Source: Hydrogenophaga pseudoflava (lineage in GTDB: Bacteria > Pseudomonadota > Gammaproteobacteria > Burkholderiales > Burkholderiaceae_C). From it: a DNA stretch of 64,000 nucleotides. A program made the position numbers and the translations under genes. The DNA lies in NCBI RefSeq assembly GCF_031020795.1, contig NZ_JAVHJP010000007.1, forward strand, positions 124,001-188,000. The letters are read 5' to 3'. The notes under the pieces were generated by a model that saw only the letters and a list, made by a program, of their open reading frames with translations, was not told the DNA's origin and did no database searches. Below are positions 14,924-54,583 of the stretch, in pieces (position 1 is the first letter of the stretch; the number at the start of each line of letters is the position of its first letter).

Positions 14924-15628
14924 TCAGACGGCGCGGCGCACCATCAGTTCCTTGATCTTGCCAATGGCCTTCGTCGGGTTCAGGCTCTTGGGGCAGACGT
15001 CCACACAGTTCATGATGGTGTGGCAGCGGAACAGCCGGTACGGGTCTTCCAGGTTGTCCAGACGTTCGCTGGTGGCCTGGTCGCGGCTGTCGGCGATGAA
15101 GCGGTAGGCCTGCAGCAGGCCGGCGGGACCAACGAACTTGTCTGGGTTCCACCAGAAGCTGGGGCAGCTGGTCGAGCAGCTGGCGCACAGGATGCACTCG
15201 TACAGCCCGTTGAGCTCTTCGCGTTCTTCGGGGCTCTGCAGGCGCTCGCGCTCGGGCGCCGGCGTCTCGTTGATCAGGTAGGGCTTGATCGAGTGGTACT
15301 GCTTGAAGAACAGCGTCATGTCCACGATCAGGTCGCGCACCACCGGCAGGCCGGGAAGCGGCTTGAGCACGATGTCGCCCTTGAGCGTGTTCAGGTTGGT
15401 CAGGCAGGCCAGGCCGTTCTTGCCGTTGATGTTCATCGCATCCGAGCCGCACACGCCTTCGCGGCAGGAGCGGCGGAACGACAGGGTGGGGTCGACGGCC
15501 TTGAGCTTGACCAAGGCGTCGAGCAGCATGCGCTCGGTGCCATCCAGTTCGACCTGGATGGTCTGCATGTTCGGCTTGGCGTCCTTGTCCGGGTCGTAGC
15601 GGTAGATCTTGAAAGTGCGTTGTGCCAT
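14924..15628 (-). CDS. sdhB: succinate dehydrogenase iron-sulfur subunit
   Basis: A 234-aa subunit of complex II at the inner face of the cytoplasmic membrane, passing electrons from SdhA flavin to quinone. All three cluster motifs are present: [21 protein letters not shown] [2Fe-2S] (cited in two parts: [12 protein letters not shown] and GKNGLAC), [12 protein letters not shown] [4Fe-4S] and [13 protein letters not shown] [3Fe-4S]. Full length; located 31 bases after sdhA on the same strand. Confidence 0.97.
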
Positions 15629-15659: not shown

Positions 15660-17471
15660 TCAGAAGGTGCGGGGCTTGGGCGGCACCGTCTCGGCCGTGA
15701 GCGGCTTCATGCGCACCGGCTTGTAGTCCAGCTTGTTGCCGTCCTGGTACCAGAGGGTGTGCTTCATCCACTCGGCGTCGTTGCGGCCCAGCGGGCAGGT
15801 CGGGTGGTTGACGTCGTGTTCGTAGTCGCGCACCAGGTGGGCGCCACGGCACTCCTTGCGCGCGGCGGCGCTGGTCATGGTGGCCTGGGCGGCTTCCATC
15901 AGGTTCTCGACTTCCAGCGCCTCGATGCGCGCGGTGTTGAACACCTTGGAGTTGTCCTTCAGGCCGATGGCCCCGACGCGCTCGCGCAGGGCATTGATCT
16001 TCTGGACACCGGCGTCCATCGATTCCTGGCTCCGGAACACGCCGGCATGCGTCTGCATGATGGCGCGCATGTCGTTGGCAACGTCCTGGGCGTACTCGCC
16101 GTTCTTGGCGCTGTCCAGGCGGGCCAGGCGGGCCAGGCGGGCCAGGGTCTTGTCGGCCGCGTCCTTGGGCAGGTCCTTGTGTTCCTGTTTGGGATTGACG
16201 TTGGCGATGATGTGGTTGCCGGCGGCCTTGCCGAACACCAGCAGGTCCAACAGCGAGTTGGTGCCCAGGCGGTTGGCGCCGTGCACCGACACGCAGGAAC
16301 ATTCGCCCACCGCGTACAGGCCGTTGACCGGGCGGTCTTCACCGCCCACGCGCTCCACCACCTGACCATGGATGTTGGTCGGGATGCCGCCCATCTGGTA
16401 GTGGATGGTGGGCACGACCGGGATGGGCTCGCGCGTCACATCGACGTTGGCGAAGTTCACGCCGATCTCGTACACGGAAGGCAGGCGCTTGTGGATGGTG
16501 TCGGCACCCAGGTGGTCCAGCTTCATGTGGATGTAGTCCTTGTTGGGACCACAGCCACGGCCTTCCAGGATTTCCTGGCCCATGCAGCGGGACACGAAGT
16601 CGCGCGGCGCCAGATCCTTCAGCGTGGGCGCATAGCGCTCCATGAAGCGCTCGCCGTTGCTGTTGAGCAGGATGGCGCCTTCACCGCGGCAGCCTTCGGT
16701 CAGCAGCACGCCTGCACCGGCCACGCCGGTGGGGTGGAACTGCCAGAACTCCATGTCCTGCAGCGCGATGCCGGCGCGGGCGGCCATGCCCAGGCCGTCG
16801 CCGGTGTTGATGAAGGCGTTGGTCGACGACTGGAAGATGCGGCCGGCGCCACCGGTGGCCAGCAGCACGGTCTTGGCTTCGAGCACGTAGGTGTCGCCGG
16901 TTTCCATCTCCAGCGCGGTCACGCCCACCACGTCGCCGCTGGCGTCGCGGATCAGGTCCAGCGCCATCCACTCCACGAAGAAGGTGGTGCGGGCCGACAC
17001 ATTGGCCTGGTACAGCGTGTGCAGCATGGCGTGGCCGGTGCGGTCGGCCGCAGCGCAGGCGCGCTGCACCGGCTTCTCGCCGTAGTTGGCGGTGTGGCCA
17101 CCGAACGGGCGCTGGTAGATCGTGCCGTCGGGGTTGCGGTCGAACGGCATGCCGAAGTGTTCGAGCTCGTACACGACCTTCGGCGCTTCGCGGCACATGA
17201 ACTCGATGGCGTCCTGGTCACCGAGCCAGTCGGAGCCCTTGACGGTGTCGTAGAAGTGGTATTCCCAGCTGTCTTCGCTCATGTTGCCCAGCGAGGCGGA
17301 CACGCCGCCCTGAGCCGCCACGGTGTGCGAGCGGGTGGGAAAGACCTTGGAGAGCACGGCCACCTTGAGGCCGGCGCGGGCCAGCTGCAGCGAGGCACGC
17401 ATGCCGGAGCCGCCGGCTCCGACGATGACCACGTCGAACTTGCGCTTGGAAAGGGATGCGGTGGTGGTCAT
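15660..17471 (-). CDS. sdhA: succinate dehydrogenase flavoprotein subunit
   Basis: A 603-aa subunit that oxidises succinate to fumarate. Seen: FAD-binding VIVGAGGSGMRASLQLA, the covalent-FAD His in RSHTVAAQGG, the active-site HGANRLGTNSLLDLLVFG, and MGGIPTN. Full length. An unusual feature is a short tandem repeat near 16115-16146 in which a nine-base unit (GGGCCAGGC) is repeated at least three times, encoding Leu-Ala-Arg three times in a helical region (LARLARLARLD). Three bases separate it from sdhD. Confidence 0.97.
   Translation of the reverse strand: MTTTASLSKRKFDVVIVGAGGSGMRASLQLARAGLKVAVLSKVFPTRSHTVAAQGGVSASLGNMSEDSWEYHFYDTVKGSDWLGDQDAIEFMCREAPKVVYELEHFGMPFDRNPDGTIYQRPFGGHTANYGEKPVQRACAAADRTGHAMLHTLYQANVSARTTFFVEWMALDLIRDASGDVVGVTALEMETGDTYVLEAKTVLLATGGAGRIFQSSTNAFINTGDGLGMAARAGIALQDMEFWQFHPTGVAGAGVLLTEGCRGEGAILLNSNGERFMERYAPTLKDLAPRDFVSRCMGQEILEGRGCGPNKDYIHMKLDHLGADTIHKRLPSVYEIGVNFANVDVTREPIPVVPTIHYQMGGIPTNIHGQVVERVGGEDRPVNGLYAVGECSCVSVHGANRLGTNSLLDLLVFGKAAGNHIIANVNPKQEHKDLPKDAADKTLARLARLARLDSAKNGEYAQDVANDMRAIMQTHAGVFRSQESMDAGVQKINALRERVGAIGLKDNSKVFNTARIEALEVENLMEAAQATMTSAAARKECRGAHLVRDYEHDVNHPTCPLGRNDAEWMKHTLWYQDGNKLDYKPVRMKPLTAETVPPKPRTF
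16115..16146. repeat. nine-base tandem repeat within sdhA
   Basis: The unit GGGCCAGGC occurs in three consecutive copies with partial flanking units. It keeps the reading frame and encodes repeated Leu-Ala-Arg in the SdhA helical domain. Gain or loss of one unit by slippage would add or remove three residues without a frameshift. Confidence 0.7.
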
Positions 17472-17474
17472 GGA

Positions 17475-17840
17475 TCAGAGTCTCCAGAGAACTTGAACAG
17501 CCCAGCCCAGGCAGGCGACGAGCCAGACGATGGTGAACACATGCAGGACGAGACGGATGCCCGCGGGCTTGATGTAGTCCATCCAGATATCGCGCATGCC
17601 GATCCAGATGTGATAGGCGATGGCGATGAAGACGGCGAAGGTCAGTGCCTTCATCCACTGCGGGGTGAAGATGCCGGCCCAGCCCTCGTAGCCCAGGGGG
17701 CCGCTGGTGAACAGCACCTTGGCCAGGACGATGAGGGTCAGCAGGGCGAAGAGAGCGCCGGTGATGCGCTGGGCGAGCCAGTCGCGCAGGCCATAGCGGG
17801 CGCCGGTGACGACGCGTTTGGAACCGTAATTGACGGACAT
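17475..17840 (-). CDS. sdhD: succinate dehydrogenase membrane anchor subunit
   Basis: A 121-aa integral membrane protein with three predicted transmembrane helices that anchors complex II and helps bind haem b and quinone. Seen: VVTGARYGLRDWLAQRITGA near the start, then the haem-ligand region FIAIAYHIWIGMRDIWMDYI and a last helix near the C-terminus. Length is typical. It lies between sdhC and sdhA with gaps of 24 and 3 bases. Confidence 0.95.
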   Translation of the reverse strand: MSVNYGSKRVVTGARYGLRDWLAQRITGALFALLTLIVLAKVLFTSGPLGYEGWAGIFTPQWMKALTFAVFIAIAYHIWIGMRDIWMDYIKPAGIRLVLHVFTIVWLVACLGWAVQVLWRL

Positions 17841-17864: not shown

Positions 17865-18296
17865 TCAGTACAGGCCGAACAGCTTGGCGCCGAGGATCAG
17901 CGTCAGTCCGATCGACAGCACCAGTGTCACGATGGCGGAGGACTTGCCGAACTCCTTGCTCACGGCGTGGTTGACGTCCATGTAGAGATGGCGCAGGCCG
18001 GCGATCAGGTGATGCAGGTAGGCCCAGATGAGGGCCAGCACCACCAGCTTGAACAGCCAGCCGGGAACAAAGCCGAGGCCGCCCGAGAAGGCTGCGCTGA
18101 AGCGTTCGTAGGAAATTTCGGACGACACCGAGGTGTCGAACAGCCAGACGATCAGGGGCAGCAGGATGAACATCAGGCCGCCGCTGGCGCGGTGCAGGAT
18201 CGACACCCAGCCGGCCAGGGGGAGGCGGTAGGTGGTCAGGTCCTTGAAGGCGTTGATGTTGCGGAACTCGGGCCGCTTCTTGGTCAACTCGGTCAT
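17865..18296 (-). CDS. sdhC: succinate dehydrogenase cytochrome b556 subunit
   Basis: A 143-aa membrane subunit with three predicted helices. The SdhC signature is clear: RPEFRNINAF, then GWVSILHRASGGLMFI (quinone site Ser and Arg) and the haem-binding AYLHHLIAGLRHLYMD. First gene of the sdhCDAB-sdhE-gltA run. The 151-base gap behind the GntR gene must carry its promoter; TTGCAA-N17-TAATCC on the minus strand is one weak candidate. Confidence 0.95.
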   Translation of the reverse strand: MTELTKKRPEFRNINAFKDLTTYRLPLAGWVSILHRASGGLMFILLPLIVWLFDTSVSSEISYERFSAAFSGGLGFVPGWLFKLVVLALIWAYLHHLIAGLRHLYMDVNHAVSKEFGKSSAIVTLVLSIGLTLILGAKLFGLY

Positions 18297-18447: not shown

Positions 18448-19275
18448 TCAGTTCAGTTCGTTGTGGTAATGCCGGGTTTCGGTGCGGTAGAGGCCGCGTC
18501 GCAGTTCCATGGGAACGTCGTTGTAGGTGTACGCCAGCCGCTCCACGCTCAGCAGCGGGTGCCCCACTTCGACGCCCAGCAACACCGCTGCATCGGCATC
18601 GGCGGCCACGGCCTTGAGCTTCTCCGTCGCGCGCACCATGCGCACGCCGAACTGCGCTTCGAACAGTGCGTACATCGGGCCCTTGTCGCTGGAAAGGGTT
18701 TCCAGGCTCAGGCCCTTGAACGGTGCGCCGGGCAGCCAGATGTCTTCGAGGATCGCGGGTGTACCCGAGAACGAAAGCACGCGCCGCACCTGCACCAGCG
18801 AGTCGCCGCCCTTGAGGTCGAGCTGCCGCGCCACTTCGGCGGGGCCTCGCAGGCGGCGGCATTCGATGATGCGGCGCTCGGCCGGACCCTGTGCCTCGGG
18901 GGCGCTCGCATCGGGGAGCACGCGCAGGAAGCGGTACTGGATGTGCTGTTCGGCGTGGGTGGCCACGAAGGTGCCCTTGCCCTGGCGGCGCACCAGCAGG
19001 TTGTCGGTGGCGAGCTCGTCGATGGCCTTGCGCACCGTGCCCTGGCTGACGCGGAAACGGGCGGCCAAGTCGAACTCGCTGGGGATCATGTCGCCCGGCT
19101 TCCACTCGCCCGCCTGCAGGCTGCGCAGGATCAGCGACTTGATCTGCTGGTACAGGGGGCTGAAGGCGGGGGTGGGAGCCAGCAGTGGCGCAGCCGGGTC
19201 GGCGCCCGCCATGTCGGCGGGCGCGCGCGAGTCCTCCGGGGACAAGTCGGGCTGCGAAGGGTGAGCGGAGGCCAT
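18448..19275 (-). CDS. GntR family regulator (HutC/UTRA type), TCA-linked
   Basis: A 275-aa regulator: winged helix at about residues 40-105 (SPLYQQIKSLILRSLQ, RFRVSQGTVRKAIDELA, VRRQGKGTFV) and a C-terminal UTRA ligand-binding domain. The N-terminal 35 residues are a Pro/Ala-rich extension. The ATG at 19275 is preferred because a good -10 (TATGAT at 19339-19334) lies over the alternative ATG at 19338. Divergent from mdh and upstream of sdhC, with a perfect palindrome in its own promoter, so autorepression and control of mdh are inferred. The effector is unknown; a TCA intermediate is a reasonable guess. Confidence 0.88.
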   Translation of the reverse strand: MASAHPSQPDLSPEDSRAPADMAGADPAAPLLAPTPAFSPLYQQIKSLILRSLQAGEWKPGDMIPSEFDLAARFRVSQGTVRKAIDELATDNLLVRRQGKGTFVATHAEQHIQYRFLRVLPDASAPEAQGPAERRIIECRRLRGPAEVARQLDLKGGDSLVQVRRVLSFSGTPAILEDIWLPGAPFKGLSLETLSSDKGPMYALFEAQFGVRMVRATEKLKAVAADADAAVLLGVEVGHPLLSVERLAYTYNDVPMELRRGLYRTETRHYHNELN

Positions 19276-19333
19276 GGTGTCGATGGATGAGCGGGCGAGT
19301 GACCCAGCGCCGTGGCCCGCTGTTGGATGCGCA

Positions 19334-19361
19334 ATCATATCTTATATAAGACATAAGACAA
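19334..19361 (-). promoter_or_regulatory. gntR promoter
   Basis: TTGTCT (19361-19356), 16-base spacer, TATGAT (19339-19334) on the minus strand. The 12-base palindrome of the putative GntR operator fills the spacer, the classic place for an autorepressor. The inferred transcript start near 19327 supports translation from 19275. Confidence 0.6.
19340..19359. promoter_or_regulatory. putative GntR operator between gntR and mdh
   Basis: TCTTATATAAGA (19340-19351) is a perfect palindrome, and its right half continues as two tandem copies of ATAAGAC (19346-19359). It overlaps the gntR promoter and lies just upstream of the mdh -35. The same palindrome recurs at 54208-54219. An AT-only core is conspicuous in this GC-rich sequence. 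Confidence 0.7.
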
Positions 19362-19362
19362 A

Positions 19363-19392
19363 TTGACGCATACGGGTTTACGCGGGTACACT
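19363..19392 (+). promoter_or_regulatory. candidate mdh promoter
   Basis: TTGACG (19363-19368), 18-base spacer, TACACT (19387-19392). The putative GntR operator ends four bases upstream of the -35. A transcript starting near 19399 would have a leader of about 65 bases before mdh. Confidence 0.5.
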
Positions 19393-19463
19393 CGCGGGCT
19401 GTCCAAGGGGTCACGCCCCGCCGATTTTTTCAACTTCCCAACGTCCCTTCTGGAGTTTTCACC

Positions 19464-20450
19464 ATGAGCAAGAAGCCCGTCCGTGTTGCCGTCACCGGCG
19501 CCGCAGGTCAGATCGGTTACGCCCTGCTGTTCCGCATCGCCTCCGGCGAAATGCTGGGCAAGGACCAGCCCGTGATCCTGCAGCTGCTGGAAATTCCGGA
19601 CGAAAAGGCCCAGAACGCTCTGAAGGGCGTGATCATGGAACTCGAAGACTGTGCCTTCCCGCTGCTGGCAGGAATCGAAGCCCACAGCGACCCGATGACC
19701 GCCTTCAAGGACACCGACTACGCCCTGCTGGTCGGCGCCCGTCCCCGTGGCCCCGGCATGGAGCGCGCCGACCTGCTGGCCGCCAACGCCCAGATCTTCA
19801 CGGCCCAGGGCAAGGCCCTGAACGCGGTGGCCTCGCGCAACGTGAAGGTGCTGGTGGTCGGCAACCCCGCCAACACCAACGCCTACATCGCCATGAAGTC
19901 GGCCCCGGATCTGCCGGCCAAGAACTTCACCGCCATGCTGCGCCTGGACCACAACCGCGCCGCTTCCCAGATCGCCGCCAAGATCGGCTGCGCCGTGGGC
20001 GACATCGAGAAGCTGGCCGTGTGGGGCAACCACTCGCCCACCATGTACGCCGACTACCGTTTTGCCACCGTGAACGGCAAGTCGGTCAAGGACACCATCA
20101 ACGACCACGACTGGAACGCCAACACCTTCCTGCCCACCGTGGGCAAGCGCGGCGCCGCCATCATCGCCGCCCGAGGCCTGTCGTCGGCCGCGTCGGCCGC
20201 CAATGCTGCCATCGACCACATGCGCGACTGGGCCCTGGGCACCAACGGCAAGTGGGTCACCATGGGCATCCCGTCCAAGGGCGAGTACGGCATTCCTGCT
20301 GAAGTCATGTTCGGCTACCCGGTCACCTGCGAAGGCGGCGAGTACAAGATCGTCGAAGGCCTGCCCATCGACGCCTTCTCGCAGGAGTGCATCAACAAGA
20401 CCCTGGCCGAGCTCGAAGGCGAGAAGGACGGCGTCAAGCACCTGCTGTGA
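19464..20450 (+). CDS. mdh: malate dehydrogenase
   Basis: A 328-aa NAD-dependent enzyme (LDH-like MDH group) interconverting malate and oxaloacetate. Seen: Rossmann [12 protein letters not shown] at about 10-21, VGNPANTNA, the substrate and catalytic Arg/Asp loop [12 protein letters not shown], and the catalytic His in [17 protein letters not shown] precedes the start. Full length. Codon use is strongly C-ending, consistent with high expression. First gene of an mdh / citrate-lyase-like / acnB run. Confidence 0.97.
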
Positions 20451-20460
20451 GTTGGTAACC

Positions 20461-20481
20461 GCTTGGTAACTCTGTGAAACC
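20461..20481. promoter_or_regulatory. TTGGTAAC direct repeats before the citrate-lyase-like gene
   Basis: Immediately after mdh the sequence has two copies of TTGGTAAC (20453-20460 as GTTGGTAACC, and 20463-20470 within GCTTGGTAACTC), placed just before the GTG start at 20474. The second copy resembles the string in the sdhC leader (18337-18357). It could be an operator or a translational control site; the evidence is only sequence similarity. Confidence 0.3.
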
Positions 20482-21457
20482 TCACCCGCGCGAGATCCTT
20501 GCTGGGGCCCAGGCCGGTGCATTTGCGCTGCCGGTCTGTGACCACTACAGCGGTGTCGAGGCGCGGATGAAAAAAAGCCTGCAGCTGCAGGCCGAACTGA
20601 GTGCCGAGTTCGGCGCCTGTGTCTTCGACGTCACGCTGGACTGCGAAGACGGTGCGCCCGTCGGTGGCGAGGCCGAACACGCGGCCCTGGTCACCGAACT
20701 GGTGTTGGGCGCGCCCGCAGGCGCCCGTGTTGCCGCCCGGGTCCACCCGGTCGACCACGCCCAGTTCGATGCCGATGTGGCCACCATCGCGGGCCGTGCC
20801 GGTGCGCGCCTGTGCCACCTCATGGTGCCCAAGGTCGAGTCGGTCGCCGATGTGGAGCGCGCCGTGGCCGCGATGAACGCTGCCGGCGCCACCGCGCTGC
20901 CGCTGCATGTGCTGATCGAGTCGCCCGCGGCGGTGCACCGGGCTTTCGACATCGCGGCACACCCGCGTGTGGCCTCGCTGAGCTTCGGCCTGATGGATTT
21001 TGTCTCGGCCCATGGGGGCGCGATTCCGGCGTCGGCCATGACGCTGGCGGGCCAGTTCAGCCACCCGCACGTGCTGCGGGCCAAGGTTGAGATGGCAGCG
21101 GCCTGCCACGCGCATGGCAAGGTGCCTTCGCACAACGTGGTGACCGAGTTCAGGGACCTGGCCGCGCTGCAGAACGCCGCGCGGCAGGCCGCGACCGAGC
21201 TGGGCTACACCCGCATGTGGAGCATCCATCCGGACCAGATCCGGACCATCGTCACGGCCTTTTCACCGACCGAGGCGGAAATCGAGACCGCGCTGGCCAT
21301 CGTCGAGCGTGCCGCGGCCGCCGACTGGGCGCCGGTGCAGCACGAAGGGCGGCTGCATGACCGCGCCAGCTACCGCTATTACTGGCAAGTGATCGAACGC
21401 GCGCACCAGACCGGGCATGCCCTGCCCGAGACCGTGCGTGGCTGGTTTCTTGCATGA
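20474..21457 (+). CDS. HpcH/HpaI aldolase / citrate lyase beta-like (CoA ester lyase)
   Basis: A 327-aa TIM-barrel enzyme of the CitE-like group. Seen: [20 protein letters not shown] (metal-binding Glu/Asp region), [39 protein letters not shown] and [13 protein letters not shown]. The start is GTG at 20474, 23 bases past mdh, with no strong Shine-Dalgarno, suggesting coupling. The likely reaction is cleavage or hydrolysis of a malyl- or citramalyl-type CoA ester; placement between mdh and acnB is common in Comamonadaceae TCA clusters. The actual substrate cannot be read from sequence. Confidence 0.87.
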
Positions 21458-54207: not shown

Positions 54208-54219
54208 TCTTATATAAGA
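54208..54219. promoter_or_regulatory. second TCTTATATAAGA palindrome (argD / DUF3579 intergenic)
   Basis: Identical 12-base palindrome to the putative GntR operator at 19340-19351, with one more matched base on each side in the common sense (GTCTTATATAAGAT). It lies 35 bases upstream of the DUF3579 start and 172 bases upstream of argD. Could bind the same GntR protein; see findings. Confidence 0.55.
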
Positions 54220-54253: not shown

Positions 54254-54583
54254 ATGGTCGACCGCCCCACCACCAAGCAAGTGTTCATCCAGGGAATCAC
54301 CCGGGGTGGGCGCACGTTCCGCCCCAGCGACTGGGCGGAGCGGCTGGCGGGCGTGATGAGCCAATTCGGCCCGGGCGGTGCATCCGGCCGCATCGGCAGC
54401 CACATTGCGTACTCGCCCTGGTGCGTGCCGACCGTGATGAACGGCACCAAGGTGGTGATCGTGCACACCGACCTGCGCGAGGCCGAACCCATGGCCTGGG
54501 ACTTCGTGATGAACTTCGCCAAGGACAACGACCTGCAGGTCGTCGAAGGCTGCCTTCTCCCCGAGCCGCCCACCAAGGGCTGA
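54254..54583 (+). CDS. DUF3579 domain protein
   Basis: A 109-aa protein of unknown function, found almost only in beta-proteobacteria next to argD (family and context known). Seen: [20 protein letters not shown], then [20 protein letters not shown] near the C-terminus. Divergent from argD, convergent promoter region carries the TCTTATATAAGA palindrome. No catalytic motif. Confidence 0.85.

Follow-up and report, generated by a model that had tools for sequence, protein, structure and literature searches.

A probable SdhR operator in the spacer of the gntR promoter

In the window (the whole 64,000-nt stretch of Hydrogenophaga pseudoflava DNA analysed here), the genes for a GntR-type regulator and for malate dehydrogenase (mdh) are read in opposite directions from an intergenic region that holds a perfect palindrome, TCTTATATAAGA. 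Is this palindrome the operator of the adjacent regulator, and if so, which genes would it control? The evidence below makes it very probable that it is the operator of an SdhR orthologue, which would repress its own gene and, by read-through, sdhCDAB, and would control mdh, aceA and a gene of the DUF3579 family (Table 1).

Table 1. Sites and genes of the predicted SdhR regulon in the window (positions count from the first nucleotide of the window)
Feature	Position	Strand	Basis or remark
Core operator palindrome TCTTATATAAGA, inner two half-sites	19340..19351		exact match; identical in 79/79 assessable named genomes
C + outer half-site ATAAGAC (19353-19359), mdh side, at a 7-nt step from the inner copy	19352..19359	+	overlaps gntR -35
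Position of second outer box of the published 26-nt motif	19333..19339		occupied here by gntR -10; 3/7 motif positions kept
gntR promoter-like site TTGTCT-N16-TATGAT	19334..19361	-	promoter scan
mdh promoter-like site TTGACG-N18-TACACT	19363..19392	+	promoter scan
gntR (SdhR orthologue), GntR winged helix + UTRA	18448..19338	-	Pfam GntR 1e-19, UTRA 6.3e-29
mdh, malate dehydrogenase	19464..20450	+	NF003916 568.5 bits
sdhC	17865..18296	-	Sdh_cyt 2e-23
sdhD	17475..17840	-	Sdh_cyt 4.1e-12
sdhA	15660..17471	-	ORF; named by sequence and neighbourhood; gene order same in relatives
sdhB	14924..15628	-	ORF; named by sequence and neighbourhood; gene order same in relatives
Second exact operator, adjoining TAGAAT (likely DUF3579 -10)	54208..54219		exact match
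DUF3579 gene, candidate regulon member	54254..54583	+	PF12112 1.4e-37

The preliminary description of this DNA had placed the palindrome within the spacer of a minus-strand gntR promoter, and this is exactly where it lies. A promoter scan found the same two hexamers, TTGTCT at 19361-19356 and TATGAT at 19339-19334, separated by a 16-nt spacer (19355-19340) and agreeing with the consensus at 9 of 12 positions; TCTTATATAAGA takes up the 12 nt of that spacer on the -10 side. The half-sites of the operator read TCTTAT/ATAAGA: the inner pair face each other, and one outer copy follows 7 nt off on the mdh side. The resulting ATAAGAC tandem (19346-19352 and 19353-19359) had been said to run up to the mdh -35, which is right to within 3 nt, since AAA separates it from TTGACG (19363-19368), the -35 of a promoter with an 18-nt spacer and TACACT as its -10 (19387-19392). 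The scan of 19200-19480 returned these two sites, against 0.1 expected from shuffles. The first ATG of the longest gntR ORF (19338) falls within the -10 hexamer, so the true start is probably downstream; by our reading, the ATG at 19275 is a candidate.

Downstream of gntR, the 151-nt gap to sdhC holds no terminator-like or promoter-like site in the window, so that read-through is the simple reading and control of sdh from the gntR promoter is plausible. Across 99 loci this gap has a median length of 153 nt (range 12-1896). On the other side, a terminator-like hairpin in the mdh leader (19407-19419, with a T-run to about 19429) was discarded: by a simple rule it is kept in just 17 of 71 leaders.

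The site matches the published SdhR motif

For a HutC-type GntR regulator named SdhR, Suvorova et al. 2015 (PMC4494728) print the motif TCTTATGTCTTATATAAGACATAAGA, and cite Suvorova et al. 2012 (J Bacteriol 194:3234) for the regulator. Our site agrees with this motif at 22 of 26 positions, comprising the core (12/12) and one of the two outer boxes. With SdhR of PMC4494728 the operator sequence and the subfamily are shared, and the name fits the neighbouring sdh operon; the difference is that the gntR-side outer box is replaced here by the -10 TATGAT. By Pfam, the regulator of the window has the GntR winged helix and the UTRA domain of the HutC subfamily, and its gene stands beside sdh and mdh, a mark of SdhR membership that we derived from the name. 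Its nearest named relatives, 94-95% identical to it, belong to Hydrogenophaga flava and H. pseudoflava.

The palindrome had been taken for one of the kind that GntR-family repressors bind near their own promoters. The part of this claim that stands is a probable operator at the regulator's own promoter; the usual HutC consensus, NGTMTAKACN (GT-N4-AC), is absent from 19340-19359, which carries the special SdhR motif instead. At aceA, a symmetric 14-mer holds GT-N10-AC.

Conservation across relatives

Conservation in relatives had been set beforehand as a test that could refute the proposal, and the element passed it at three levels. In the own genus, the same core and outer box are found in 30/30 loci (own genome included; the best 30 of 54 genomes with a strong regulator match, among 60 genomes of the genus). 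In named genomes, a set that shares genomes with the previous one, the core is intact (12/12) in 79/79 assessable loci, these being the best 80 of 289 minus L119, whose sequence reaches just 50 nt ahead of the match and so lacks the upstream region. In other families of the order, 22 of 25 genomes keep 11 or 12 of the 12 positions at the regulator gene; 20 of the 25 have a strong regulator match, and five were chosen because the 12-mer adjoined the regulator. The best site score in these 25 is 12 in 18 genomes, 11 in four, 10 in two and 9 in one (counting just the 20 with a strong match, 13 score 12 and four score 11), and the gntR-side site is inexact (9-11 of 12) in seven. In the five genomes chosen for their site, the regulator is 35-42% identical and the operator lies beside gntR-mdh in 5/5.

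Averaged by column across the 79 distinct sequences, conservation reaches 1.00 in the palindrome, 0.97 in the gntR -10 and 0.98 from the outer box to TTGAC, compared to 0.45 in the upstream flank and 0.55 in the mdh leader. The conservation of the operator is not fully separable from that of the promoter elements it overlaps. Operator, outer box and TTGA with a 3-nt gap recur in 30/30 own-genus and 78/80 named loci. TATGAT or TATCAT adjoins the operator in 30/30 loci of the own genus and, among the 78 named loci that fit the pattern (80 searched), in 77. Of the two outer boxes, the one facing mdh is the better conserved among order-level loci. Four-box sites also occur, matching the published motif at 26/26 positions in locus L051 and at 25/26 in L047. 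In 14 of 29 loci listed (L049, L053, L055, L059, L063 and L064 among them), the 48 nt that follow the operator contain a GGAC; it was considered as a leaderless start and dismissed, because frames and starts do not fit.

Further predicted operators before aceA and a DUF3579 gene

The exact 12-mer occurs three times in the 4,983,704 bases of the genome: at gntR/mdh, before aceA, and before the DUF3579 gene at 54254. A first-order model of the window predicts 0.0002 copies, a count that is too low for AT-rich intergenic DNA because the model is GC-rich. Shuffling the window gave 0 matches in 100 trials, and the reversed pattern gave 0 in the own genome and 5 vs 180 for the true pattern across 100 genomes. 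For the 14-nt form GTCTTATATAAGAC, the genome has one perfect site, three sites with 1 mismatch and eight with 3, but none with 2; its reversed control yielded 14 sites at up to 3 mismatches. The four sites at 0-1 mismatch lie at gntR/mdh, aceA (two) and DUF3579 and nowhere else, a distribution that sets four operators at three loci above the background. The exact 13-mer of tandem half-sites, ATAAGACATAAGA, is confined to gntR/mdh and aceA. Beyond the exact copies we claim no tandem half-sites: allowing up to 2 mismatches adds one site, which lies within that operator at aceA, against 4 for the reversed control. One of the eight sites with 3 mismatches to the SdhR operator, GTCCTCTATAGGAC (positions 1501-1514 of locus L009), stands 40 nt ahead of a match to a different GntR paralogue and may be that paralogue's own operator.

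Beyond gntR/mdh, the predicted regulon thus extends to aceA and DUF3579; the second exact copy lies in the window itself and had escaped the preliminary description. In counts that, like those for aceA below, come from best-scoring loci and lean to close relatives, the DUF3579 operator is present in all 30 loci taken from the own genus (the 30 best of 77, the own genome among them), where the likely -10 follows at once, and in 24 of 29 further loci, 11 with the likely -10 adjoining and 12 with two bases between. Of these 29, one is of the own genus and 28 represent other genera of the family, chosen as the best among 141 genomes with a match. In other families, six loci from 26 with a match gave no site above 9/12. 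DUF3579 would accordingly be an SdhR target at the level of the family. The promoter scan found no promoter at DUF3579, and the hexamers there and at aceA were assigned by eye. A predicted model of the DUF3579 protein (mean pLDDT 84.1) has the family member 2l9d as its nearest solved fold, and beyond it just weak ferredoxin-like matches (E 0.05 and worse). The gene adjoins ORFs that by eye resemble argD and argF. The name DUF3579 was found in none of the open-access papers searched.

On another contig, aceA is preceded by two operators (L001, 1500-1550), each with 10-12 of 12 positions and exactly 30 nt apart in all 30 loci compared within the own genus (the 30 best among 85 genomes with a match, the own genome included). 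An outer half-site, reading CATAAGA or CACAAGA in the loci listed, follows the upstream one, and the second stands just before a likely -10 (by eye). The fixed 30-nt step suggests cooperative dimers. Exact 12-mers precede aceA in three other families as well (G066, G079 and G090).

Single order-level genomes point to further candidates. Thirteen order-level loci (L255-L267) carry sites that are not beside the regulator, and four of them have the 12-mer before icd (L255), prpE (L256), aceB with aceA (L260) and dctP (L262). These are possible targets in one genome each, of which some may be due to chance, though as genes of central carbon metabolism or transport the four form a coherent set. We regard the atp operon (L259) and birA (L257) as doubtful, and do not claim L258, L261 (ApbE-like), L263, L264, L265 (rsmD), L266 and L267 as targets.

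An invariant glutamine in the recognition helix

In Table 1 of PMC4494728, the specific Arg-G contacts of FadR are listed as Arg35 and Arg45 (HTH positions 28 and 38); AraR shares the arginine at position 38 (Arg63) alone and has Asn at 28. That paper has no such analysis of SdhR. The arginine of described GntR proteins at position 38 is not found in SdhR: four overlapping sets of loci, 135 in all, have Gln at position 38 (residue 99 of the longest ORF here) and Gly at position 39 in 135/135, and position 28 is never Arg in these loci. We infer that the altered recognition helix explains the altered operator. Among the 25 GntR-domain matches in the genome (22 above cut-off), the helix VSQGTVR belongs to the gntR beside mdh alone.

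Among solved structures, the HutC-type YvoA (2wv0) and DasR (4zs8) match over residues 58-61 to 288, through winged helix and effector domain, at 70-73 bits. The aligned helix reads PSERE...ISRMTVR in YvoA and PSEFD...VSQGTVR in the SdhR orthologue, and the operator here differs from that expected of such HutC-type repressors in not being GT-N4-AC. The nearest solved chain is 3cnv ('Putative GntR-family transcriptional regulator'; E 5.6e-58, residues 133-296), which has no HTH, unlike the SdhR orthologue, and is probably an SdhR effector domain. We take the source organism of 3cnv to be Bordetella.

Co-occurrence of regulator and operator

Across 40 order-level genomes, the exact 12-mer is present in 20 of the 25 that have SdhR (defined by an sdhC neighbour plus the helix) and in 2 of the 15 that do not (Fisher p = 5.5e-5, uncorrected for relatedness and base composition). 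Grouping by E-value alone gives 20/27 vs 2/13 (p = 0.0007). The two groupings differ in genomes G064 and G071, which we moved to the group without SdhR because of their other helix (SVGTVR/SIGTVR), the lack of mdh/sdh neighbours and the lack of an operator in the stretch examined. Three further genomes in that group of 15 carry weak GntR matches (G070, G078 and G084).

Exceptions go both ways. Five of the 25 SdhR genomes hold no exact 12-mer anywhere. In G093, which has the 12-mer without SdhR, the site falls within overlapping ORFs; in G099, a genome of 27-29% GC where SdhR was not found, there are three exact 12-mers preceded by a common 30 nt. In the own genus, the four of 60 genomes without the 12-mer (G008, G036, G042 and G056) are all 55-82% complete and have no strong regulator match.

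Proposed mechanism and its alternatives

In the mechanism that we favour, SdhR bound at the palindrome would cover the space between the -35 and the -10 of its own promoter. An operator in the promoter spacer speaks for repression at gntR, which would carry over to sdhCDAB by read-through. With its edge 3 nt short of the mdh -35, bound SdhR should control mdh as well, and most likely repress it. At DUF3579, where the operator adjoins the likely -10 as it does at gntR, it would control the DUF3579 gene, and the two operators 30 nt apart would control aceA. SdhR would presumably be released when its UTRA domain binds a small molecule. The autoregulation and joint control of mdh put forward in the preliminary description are therefore in line with both the anatomy of the site and its conservation, as predictions from sequence.

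The direction of control at mdh is where this mechanism meets its most serious competitor, namely that bound SdhR represses its own gene yet acts as an activator of mdh, and perhaps of aceA, which we think unlikely. By arithmetic, some 53 nt separate the centre of the site from the likely mdh start downstream, a position also used by activators. The 3-nt gap between the outer half-site and the mdh -35, constant in 30/30 own-genus and 78/80 named loci, would suit contact with the polymerase, and the mdh -10, TACACT, deviates from consensus. The gap is not constant in other families, however, where it measures 1, 4 and 5 nt in the 3 matching of 20 loci. The operator also lies between -35 and -10 at gntR, adjoins the likely -10 at DUF3579 and precedes the likely -10 at aceA; operators that cover or adjoin promoter elements in this way speak for repression at these three genes.

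Binding by the adjacent regulator is itself a prediction, as adjacency is no proof of binding and the 25 GntR-domain matches of the genome offer other candidates. That another of them, or some other regulator, binds the palindrome is nevertheless very improbable: the 12-mer goes with SdhR across genomes (20/25 vs 2/15), the operator stays with the SdhR gene across families, VSQGTVR is found in one of the 25 matches, and the motif is assigned to SdhR in PMC4494728. We give hardly any credence to an AT-rich promoter or UP-like feature kept merely because two promoters overlap. The element does overlap the gntR promoter-like site and adjoins the mdh -35, but the palindrome is kept exactly, C and G included, and elsewhere in the genome the same 12-mer is found before aceA and DUF3579 alone; promoters need no palindrome. 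Repression by SdhR at gntR, with control of mdh, remains the reading that we carry forward.

A possible role of SdhR at the isocitrate branch point

The SdhR motif and its regulator were already published (PMC4494728); what we add is the invariant Gln in place of Arg, DUF3579 as a predicted family-level target, and the operator pairs at aceA. As far as the literature matches listed show, SdhR has so far been a computational prediction alone: no measured SdhR binding or regulation was found among them (subscription papers and RegPrecise were outside the search). For Hydrogenophaga and relatives, the predictions now offer a small and clean set of target sites in the TCA and glyoxylate pathways, and give DUF3579 a first functional context. 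The invariant Gln at the place of a DNA-contacting Arg, together with an operator without GT-N4-AC, makes a testable case of change in the GntR DNA code.

A broader picture, which we offer tentatively and hold to be possible rather than probable, is that SdhR switches flux at the isocitrate branch point throughout the order. Its small regulon would comprise mdh, sdh and aceA (with icd, aceB, prpE and dctP in single relatives) and the ferredoxin-like DUF3579, read through a four-box operator by an invariant Ser-Gln-Gly helix without the Arg-G contact, with dimers binding next to one another (7-nt boxes, 30-nt pairs at aceA). The PdhR and PsrA regulons described for Shewanellaceae (PMC5343134) likewise place sdh, gltA and aceA/aceB under one regulator; there, PdhR is a GntR protein listed apart from HutC and PsrA belongs to TetR, so that both groups differ from SdhR. 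Beside mdh in the window, and in many relatives, we also noted an HpcH/HpaI gene (citrate-lyase beta-like; 20474-21457), which lies between mdh and acnB.
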